This document shows, one piece after another, positions 44,226 to 46,446 of a DNA stretch of 64,000 nucleotides. Each line of letters starts with the position of its first letter. Position 1 is the first letter of the stretch. The notes below the pieces were generated by a model. That model saw nothing but the letters and a program-made list of their open reading frames with translations. It was not told where the DNA came from and did no database searches. The translations under genes were made by a program, and so were the position numbers. This DNA comes from Catenulispora acidiphila DSM 44928 (GTDB lineage Bacteria; Actinomycetota; Actinomycetes; Streptomycetales; Catenulisporaceae), in assembly GCF_000024025.1 (NCBI RefSeq), contig NC_013131.1, positions 1,116,001 to 1,180,000 of the forward strand, read 5' to 3'.

Positions 44226-44293
44226 GCGCGGCTACAGGTCCGGATCACGAGACCGACTGGACCACGCCGCGGACGCCATGGCACGATGACGGC

Positions 44294-44359
44294 ATGCTCG
44301 CGAACCGCCGATTTTTCTATGGCTACGGACCAGGGTCCCTAGCCATCGTCGGCTGCTGA
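44294..44359 (+). CDS. Leader peptide with Phe-Phe-Tyr-Gly-Tyr run (attenuator)
   Basis: This is a 21-codon open frame starting ATG 44294 and ending TGA 44357-44359. Residues 7-11 are Phe, Phe, Tyr, Gly, Tyr, an unusual aromatic cluster matching the end products of the pathway of the next gene, chorismate mutase. A pause hairpin, an alternative pairing and a terminator follow, as in classical amino-acid attenuators. The ribosome site upstream is weak. It is inferred to act in cis by ribosome stalling, not as a functional protein. Confidence 0.75.
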   Translation: MLANRRFFYGYGPGSLAIVGC

Positions 44360-44415
44360 GCACACCAAGCCAACGAGCGCCTCGGACCCCTTCCGGTTCG
44401 GGGCGCTCGCCTTTT
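44321..44415 (+). promoter_or_regulatory. Transcription attenuator of the chorismate mutase gene
   Basis: Three segments compete. Segment 1 (GGACC, 44327-44331) and segment 3 (GGACCC, 44384-44389, inside the terminator 5' arm) are both complementary to segment 2 (GGGTCC, 44333-44338). Segments 1 and 2 sit in a hairpin spanning 44321-44344 that overlaps the leader after its aromatic codons. A ribosome stalled at Phe/Tyr codons would free segment 2 to pair with segment 3 and so break the terminator. This is inferred from sequence only. Confidence 0.7.
44375..44415 (+). terminator. Attenuator terminator before aroQ
   Basis: A 14-bp stem, 44375-44388 with 44395-44408 (two G-T wobbles, 6-nt loop), opens with GAGCGCC and closes with GGCGCTC. 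It is followed by GCC and TTTT. It lies between the leader peptide and the chorismate mutase start. Confidence 0.85.
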
Positions 44416-44470
44416 GTGGCGAGTGCGGTCGGACCGCTCGGAGCCCGGGCCCAGCCCGAGGAGCCCCGCC

Positions 44471-44869
44471 ATGACCGCCAGCGCCACCGCCGACCCGACG
44501 TCCGCCGATTCCTCGCACCCCGTCGCGCCGGAGCCGGCATCCCCCGCTGCCCCCGCCGCCCCCGCGCCGACCAGCTCAGATGCCCCGACCATGCCAGCTG
44601 CCTCGTCCCCGGAAACCGGCCAGCCCACCCCCGCCGGCGTACATAGCGGCCGCTCCCAGATCGACGACCTGGACGCCCGCATCCTGGCCCTGATCACCGA
44701 GCGCATCAGCACCGCCGCCGACATCCAGACCGCCCGCATCGCCGACGGCGGCCGCCGCCTGGACCTCAAGCGCGAGACCGAGATCATCGCCCGCTACCGC
44801 GGTGCGCTGGGCCGCCCCGGCGTGACCGTCGCGATGGCCGTCCTGGAGCTGTGCCGAGGCCGCGTGTAG
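44471..44869 (+). CDS. aroQ: Chorismate mutase (AroQ type)
   Basis: The protein has 132 residues. The first about 65 are a disordered Ala/Pro/Ser extension. The AroQ helical domain then begins at SQIDDLDARILALITERIST and continues with RLDLKRETEIIARYR. The residues Arg, Lys and Glu of the active site are in their usual helices. It converts chorismate to prephenate, the branch toward Phe and Tyr. GAGGAG at 44458-44463 serves ATG 44471. The upstream attenuator fits control by Phe/Tyr supply. Confidence 0.92.
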   Translation: MTASATADPTSADSSHPVAPEPASPAAPAAPAPTSSDAPTMPAASSPETGQPTPAGVHSGRSQIDDLDARILALITERISTAADIQTARIADGGRRLDLKRETEIIARYRGALGRPGVTVAMAVLELCRGRV

Positions 44870-46360: not shown

Positions 46361-46432
46361 GCCCCCGTAGCTCAGGGGATAGAGCACCGCCCTCCGGAGG
46401 CGGGTGCGTAGGTTCGAATCCTACCGGGGGCA
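46361..46432 (+). tRNA. tRNA-Arg (anticodon CCG)
   Basis: The full cloverleaf is present: acceptor GCCCCCG/CGGGGGC, anticodon stem CCGCC/GGCGG with loop CTCCGGA (anticodon CCG at 46394-46396), T stem GTAGG/CCTAC with loop TTCGAAT, and discriminator A. The CCA end is not encoded (CCC follows). It reads CGG arginine codons. Confidence 0.97.
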
Positions 46433-46446
46433 CCCTGTCTGACCAG

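Follow-up and report, generated by a model that had tools for sequence, protein, structure and literature searches.

A probable phenylalanine/tyrosine leader-peptide attenuator upstream of chorismate mutase in Catenulispora acidiphila and related actinomycetes

In Catenulispora acidiphila DSM 44928, a chorismate mutase (CM) gene is preceded by a small leader ORF with clustered Phe and Tyr codons, a leader hairpin and a predicted intrinsic terminator, an arrangement that is very probably a ribosome-mediated transcription attenuator of that gene. Prephenate, which CM makes, is the precursor of Phe and Tyr, and as expected of an attenuator the short ORF before the gene carries codons for the amino acids that its pathway produces. 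The locus lies in a window of 64,000 nucleotides, meaning the whole stretch of DNA analysed here (NC_013131.1, forward strand, positions 1,116,001 to 1,180,000). A preliminary description of the window had proposed an attenuator at this place. Comparative sequence analysis now supports that interpretation through a conserved leader, co-changing pairing partners and a -10-like site upstream of the leader, and it indicates that the element is spread over the class and not private to this genome. The sequence itself shows the elements, their conservation, their co-change and the fixed -10-like site; we infer the transcription start, termination, the sensing of tRNA charging and the dominance of Phe.

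Results

The chorismate mutase gene and its leader

The downstream gene had been called a chorismate mutase, and the profile search agrees: it matches NCBIfam NF005894 at 96.3 bits against a cut-off of 73, with its start at the ATG at 44471. A Pfam CM_2 match is also above its cut-off and spans only positions 2-52 of 80. The genome (10,467,782 bases, one contig) holds three CM_2 matches. Of the two further domains (L001 and L002), one belongs to a stand-alone protein of 126 aa and the other to a longer frame, and these proteins may have a role in secondary metabolism. No small ORF with paired aromatic codons was found in the 1000 nt upstream of L002; seven overlapping small frames with paired aromatics lie upstream of L001. 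Two WXG100 genes (PF06013; 43387-43914 and 43929-44225) stand directly upstream of the leader, and by eye a similar protein end precedes the leader in the Catenulispora-type loci L005-L008. A tRNA-Arg (CCG) gene is present at 46361-46434.

Read directly from the sequence, the 21-codon leader ORF runs from an ATG at 44294 to a TGA at 44357-44359. Phe-Phe-Tyr-Gly-Tyr occupies codons 7-11 as the preliminary description had it, and the segments GGACC, GGGTCC and GGACCC are all where it had placed them (Table 1). An intrinsic terminator is predicted between leader and gene. It had been described as a 14-bp stem with a T-run; hairpin and T-run are both present, but the stem comes to 15 bp on folding (44374-44388 with 44395-44409) and the T-run is modest, with CC followed by a short TTTT at 44412-44415. 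The alternative pairing of GGGTCC with the terminator segment was also borne out, and the antiterminator predicted here is longer than the one first seen.

The 127-nt region folded at -63.8 kcal/mol; its dinucleotide shuffles averaged -44.3 ± 3.75 kcal/mol (z -5.2), and none of the 200 did as well. No Rfam family reached its gathering threshold in the region, and a relaxed search returned two weak unrelated matches, far below threshold.

Table 1. Features of the putative attenuator and of the gene that follows it, in window coordinates.
Feature	Position	Strand	Detail	Basis
-35-like CTGGAC, weak	44257..44262	+	19 nt from -10	sequence; relatives by eye
-10-like CACGAT	44282..44287	+	ends 6 nt before leader ATG	sequence and relatives
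Leader ORF MLANRRFFYGYGPGSLAIVGC	44294..44359	+	ends in stop codon; aromatics F7 (TTT), F8 (TTC), Y9 (TAT), Y11 (TAC)	
Phe codon TTT, codon 7	44312..44314	+	rare and conserved	codon counts in relatives and window ORFs
Leader hairpin 1:2	44319..44346	+	includes GGACC 44327-44331 and GGGTCC 44333-44338	folding
Region 2, GGGTCC	44333..44338	+	partner of region 1 or region 3	folding, pairing in relatives
Extended antiterminator (predicted)	44333..44389	+	44333-38:44384-89, 44342-43:44379-80, 44346-49:44373-76, 44351-54:44368-71	
Intrinsic terminator hairpin (3:4)	44374..44409	+	followed by CCTTTT	folding
Region 3, GGACCC	44384..44389	+	in terminator 5' arm	sequence, folding, pairing in relatives
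Shine-Dalgarno-like GGAG of CM gene	44460..44463	+		sequence
CM, stand-alone monofunctional AroQ-type (NF005894)	44471..44869	+		profile matches

The leader is conserved across the order and beyond

Genomes of the order carry a CM match in 144 of 147 cases. We assembled 65 distinct CM-upstream regions, the window's among them, from the 30 best-scoring loci and 35 stretches after excluding five duplicates. A Phe/Tyr leader was present in 64 of the 65, with 60 called by script and four recognized by reading (L070, and L018, L019 and L021 on the stretches L114, L115 and L116). The sole region that lacked one, L076, belongs to the second CM copy of its genome. Leaders within Catenulispora are near-identical; those of Streptomyces-type loci mostly follow M....TF.FTYG..P.GCHGRAA, and other leaders of the order contain RFGYGF, RFSYGHR or WF[ST]YGTGP.

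Across the class, 58 of 196 genomes (order genomes counted in) exceeded the NF005894 cut-off, and we read 40 further regions, four of them (L113-L116) from order genomes. Outside the order, usable over-cut-off primary CM orthologues had a Phe/Tyr leader in 27 of 30 cases, from six other families. The leader occurred in all 16 regions of family f18, as ..FYG[GD]R.RSP.. or DHFYQGPG.., in 2/2 of f34, 1/1 of f32, 1/1 of f14 and 2/2 of f16, where a third region (L108), 56 bases long, was excluded from the count. In family f6, sampled at 8 of 16 listed genomes, five of eight regions had it, each from genus g8, with VLNMQRRFFYGYRPAVPVV as one example. The other three (L083, L084 and L086, from three other genera) have CM and no Phe/Tyr leader in the region read, which suggests losses in those lineages. 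Second CM copies (L076, L110, L111, L112 and L113) had no leader. In family f17, whose CM falls below the NF005894 cut-off, one of two regions carries a leader: L118 has MIHRYFVFSQPTVPSAADT, preceded at 7 nt by a -10-like site, and its switch folds poorly in the model described below. Because the leader occurs in nine families plus this one weaker case, it is likely to be old.

A fixed promoter-like site suggests a leaderless mRNA

In 58 of the 60 order leaders, 6-7 nt separate the called start from the end of an upstream hexamer of the form [TC]A...T; elsewhere in these stretches the hexamer occurred at 9 of 1680 offsets. This fixed placement marks a conserved promoter-like site upstream of the leader. 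L038 and L078 have no hexamer at that distance, and the match in L072 arose by chance because its start was mis-called; read by eye, each of the three has CATACT 6 nt ahead of a more upstream ATG in frame with the leader. For class leaders outside the order the script tried every in-frame start, and 30 of 31 had a -10-like hexamer before some such start; L109 has GACACT. Inspection by eye also placed CTGGAC or CTAGAC at the position matching the -35-like element in Catenulispora relatives, and TTGGAC in many Streptomyces-type loci.

Such short spacing makes a leaderless leader mRNA probable, with transcription predicted to begin at the first base of the leader. The consulted part of one report describes several leader-peptide mRNAs of S. 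lividans as leaderless (PMC8079986). A transcription start downstream of 44415 had been named as an observation that would speak against attenuation; the conserved -10-like site lies instead upstream of the leader, and a second promoter nearer CM may exist.

Pairing partners change together

The MAFFT alignment misplaces region 2 between genera, so pairing was scored within each sequence. A helix of 5-10 bp between leader and terminator arm was present in 53 of 53 order leaders whose arm fell within the stretch examined (for the other seven of the 60 it did not), a count that carries no chance control. The pair GGGTCC:GGACCC is that of Catenulispora; L020 has GGTCCGG:CCGGACC, most Streptomyces-type leaders have CGGCCCG:CGGGCCG in whole or in part, and L055 has CGGTCCG:CGGACCG, with both partners changed within that genus. 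The partners in L058 are GGTCCGGG:CCCGGGCC, and a different helix is the longest in L024 and L053. Among 16 representatives, leaders paired with their own arms at a mean of -19.9 kcal/mol, against -18.35 ± 0.60 kcal/mol when re-paired (104 of 20000 permutations). Taken leader by leader, the interaction residual was positive in 4 of 16, and the own arm ranked first in 2 only. Conservation of the aromatic codons and of the alternative pairing, on which the preliminary description had staked its proposal, thus extends to relatives within the order and beyond it, with changes on both sides of the helix, and such conservation with covarying pairing is a feature expected of an attenuator.

A modelled switch responds to stalls at aromatic codons

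In the mechanism that we propose, a leaderless mRNA would begin at the leader ATG and a ribosome would trail RNA polymerase. Scarcity of charged tRNA-Phe (or, in this genus, of charged tRNA-Tyr at codon 9) would stall the ribosome at codons 7-9, where it would open the leader hairpin; region 2, once free, would pair with the 5' arm of the terminator as an antiterminator, and CM would be transcribed. Under adequate charging the ribosome would reach the stop codon and cover region 2, allowing the terminator to form and transcription to end near 44415. If translation failed, hairpin 1:2 would also leave the terminator free in the window.

We modelled this by cutting the transcript before the terminator 3' arm and letting the ribosome mask to 13 nt from the A-site codon. 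In the window the probability of pairing between regions 2 and 3 was 0.00 without a ribosome, 1.00 at stalls on F7, F8 and Y9, 0.44 on Y11 and 0.00 at the stop codon, so the modelled antiterminator, mutually exclusive with the terminator, is released by a stall and blocked at the stop. L028 and L016 behaved like the window in the model, L028 reaching 0.74 at Y11, and L058 responded at F8, Y10 and F12. The best aromatic stall exceeded the stop state in 25 of 26 hand-chosen representatives, narrowly in some; the exception was L118 (f17), in which no stall exceeded it, and the modelled switch was weak in f14, f17 and f18. The antiterminator formed without a ribosome in L055 (0.97), L020 (0.80) and L073 (1.00), for which the off-state would consequently need a ribosome at the stop codon, and in more such lineages among the 26. 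As untranslated RNA already favours the antiterminator in several lineages, hairpin 1:2 is not a general default switch.

Chance was gauged with 200 synonymous recodings per leader, all in the window's codon usage. Mean occupancy did not separate the window from its recodings (103 of 200), and because recoded controls scored as high this measure was dropped after the first result and replaced by an energy score. The window antiterminator then stood at -14.3 against -10.2 ± 3.4 kcal/mol for recodings (22 of 200 as good), a modest gain, and its leader self-fold was equalled in 38 of 200. Over the 26 leaders, the antiterminator was stronger than the recoded mean in 23 (mean z -1.4; exceptions L114, L118 and L053) and the self-fold in all 26. 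For this test the ribosome was stalled at the final Phe or Trp lying seven or more codons from the end, moved one earlier by hand in L058 and L020; in L053 the rule chose W18, the wrong stall codon. Terminator arms were assigned by hand, since the automatic finder had misplaced the hairpin in several loci. Because the leaders are related to one another, these results are not independent trials, and it is the comparison with relatives that carries the case beyond chance.

A conserved UUU codon and the presumed amino-acid signal

Each of the 60 order and 31 class leaders contains at least one TTT codon. A Phe codon no more than two codons ahead of Tyr is TTT in all 60 order leaders and in 30 of 30 class leaders scored (L118, which is without the motif, falls outside the 30); 12 of the 90 have TTC as a second Phe codon at this place. 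Outside it, the Phe codons of these leaders number 51 TTC and 4 TTT, a tally in which f18 leaders are represented from their FY codons onward only. Among the Phe codons of 21 long window frames, selected by codon-position GC, TTT accounts for 9 of 268, and among their Tyr codons TAT accounts for 32 of 207. Codon 7 of the window's leader is unpaired in the predicted structures. Phe and Tyr tRNAs read C-ending codons faster than U-ending ones, according to the portion of PMC4046918 consulted, which cites earlier work. These counts suggest that the TTT codon may be kept slow on purpose.

This conservation also bears on whether the signal is read from codons or from the peptide. Under nascent-peptide arrest, RFFYGY would itself stall the ribosome on free Phe, Tyr or prephenate and the codons would be incidental. 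RRFFYGY is indeed alike in the window's genus and in f6, it recurs as RFFYGY in f32, and the C-terminal YG..P.GCHGRAA is very constant among Streptomyces-type leaders. However, the third-position T is kept in 90 of 90 leaders scored, which points to selection at the level of the codon, the C-terminal part varies by lineage together with the RNA pairing, and the motif is reduced to FY in f14 and much of f18; we consider peptide-driven arrest very unlikely.

With codons as the presumed signal of the attenuator, a ribosome stalled at Phe releases region 2 in the models of most representatives. A stall at the first Tyr is predicted to be about as good in f1, f3, f6 and f34, partly effective in f2 and f32, and poor in f14 and most of f18, and the second Tyr (Y11) of the window's genus appears too close to work well. 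The modelled geometry thus favours Phe over Tyr as the main signal. The preliminary description had both amino acids sensed together: Phe stands as the main signal by geometry, but in the model Y11 only partly frees the antiterminator. Our best reading is that charged tRNA-Phe would be the main input and tRNA-Tyr a candidate second one, dependent on lineage.

Termination, translation or an upstream gene end

Many Streptomyces-type terminators have poor U-tracts, which would fit a leader that acted on translation, by access to the CM ribosome-binding site, instead of on termination. Translation attenuation with leaderless cysteine-rich ORFs has also been reported in mycobacteria (cited in PMC13236596, of which part was consulted). 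Yet in the window the switch engages a terminator arm whose end is 71 nt upstream of the Shine-Dalgarno-like GGAG, and the order loci that were folded have a GC-rich hairpin 3' of the leader, both of which argue against translational control and make it, in our judgement, highly improbable. That the hairpin is a mere 3' terminator of the WXG100 gene pair, whose second gene ends 68 nt before the leader start, and the small ORF a product of chance is scarcely credible, given that other families also have the leader and the hairpin ahead of CM, with partners that covary and a -10-like site at a fixed distance.

Leader-like ORFs before DAHP synthase genes

Among full-domain matches to type I DAHP synthase, two of eight were preceded by an ORF that resembles a leader and lies 7 nt downstream of a -10-like hexamer. 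The ORF before DAHP synthase in L132 (an f3 genome) is MQRRFFFFGYGGRPEAPRAGCLIGVAQI, with TTC TTC TTT TTT and TAT. In the C. acidiphila genome itself, DAHP synthase locus L125 (G000:C1:4067160-4068044, minus strand) has the candidate leader MSTVVRSYPRFTPASGEAVGRVR, with TAT and TTT, followed by a hairpin with GGCAGAGAC:GTCTCTGCC and TTT; the stall model gave no support for a switch there (Y8 0.03, F11 0.25, stop 0.26). No small ORF with paired aromatics was found in the 600 nt before the type II DAHP synthase (L119) or prephenate dehydratase (L120) of the same genome.

The pattern TTTNNCTATGGC, tried as a marker, had 3 matches in the genome versus 7 for its reversed control and by that comparison is not specific on its own. 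The other two matches were not leader-like.

Discussion

Regulation by a Phe-codon leader has a classical counterpart in E. coli, where pheA encodes a fused CM-prephenate dehydratase behind such a leader. The likeness lies in a Phe-codon leader and attenuation before CM activity. The window's system differs in that its CM is stand-alone, its mRNA is probably leaderless, Tyr codons are present and no Rfam family matches. The E. coli pheL-pheA attenuator is named in PMC11802643, the consulted part of which also describes aroR of C. glutamicum, a Phe-Tyr-Phe leader of aroF that responds to Phe limitation and not to Tyr. As described there, aroR-aroF resembles the window's system as an actinobacterial Phe/Tyr leader before a gene of the aromatic pathway; aroR controls DAHP synthase, whereas the window leader precedes chorismate mutase. 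The DAHP synthase leaders of L132 and L125 recall aroR by their look. Actinobacterial trp, leu and ilv attenuators, as presented in the excerpts consulted (PMC1262725, PMC8079986), likewise combine a leader peptide with alternative hairpins and serve other amino acids.

Within the part consulted, a 2005 comparative survey reports no conserved RNA structures upstream of Phe and Tyr operons in Actinobacteria (PMC1262725), and the S. lividans table of 8 leader peptides, in the section available to us, includes none for Phe, Tyr or CM (PMC8079986). We found no description of such an element before CM in the literature searched, much of it in excerpt. Attenuators of this kind have long been known; what looks new is this member, its spread and the fixed codon.

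We tentatively suggest, as a reading with not quite an even chance of being right, that one particular synonymous codon does the sensing: a slow, wobble-read UUU beside Tyr, held since early in the class by genomes that use UUC elsewhere, would act as a calibrated pause in a class-wide Phe gauge of CM. In some lineages this gauge would have a sister on DAHP synthase, and selection would bear on the third position as well as on the amino acid encoded.

An attenuator of this kind would give actinobacteria a regulatory input where the pathway branches to Phe and Tyr, also in Streptomyces-type organisms, which are known for chorismate-derived products. It would offer a defined site for studying Phe/Tyr flux in laboratory Streptomyces, and the fixed UUU codon would be a natural case for testing whether attenuators are tuned by synonymous choice.
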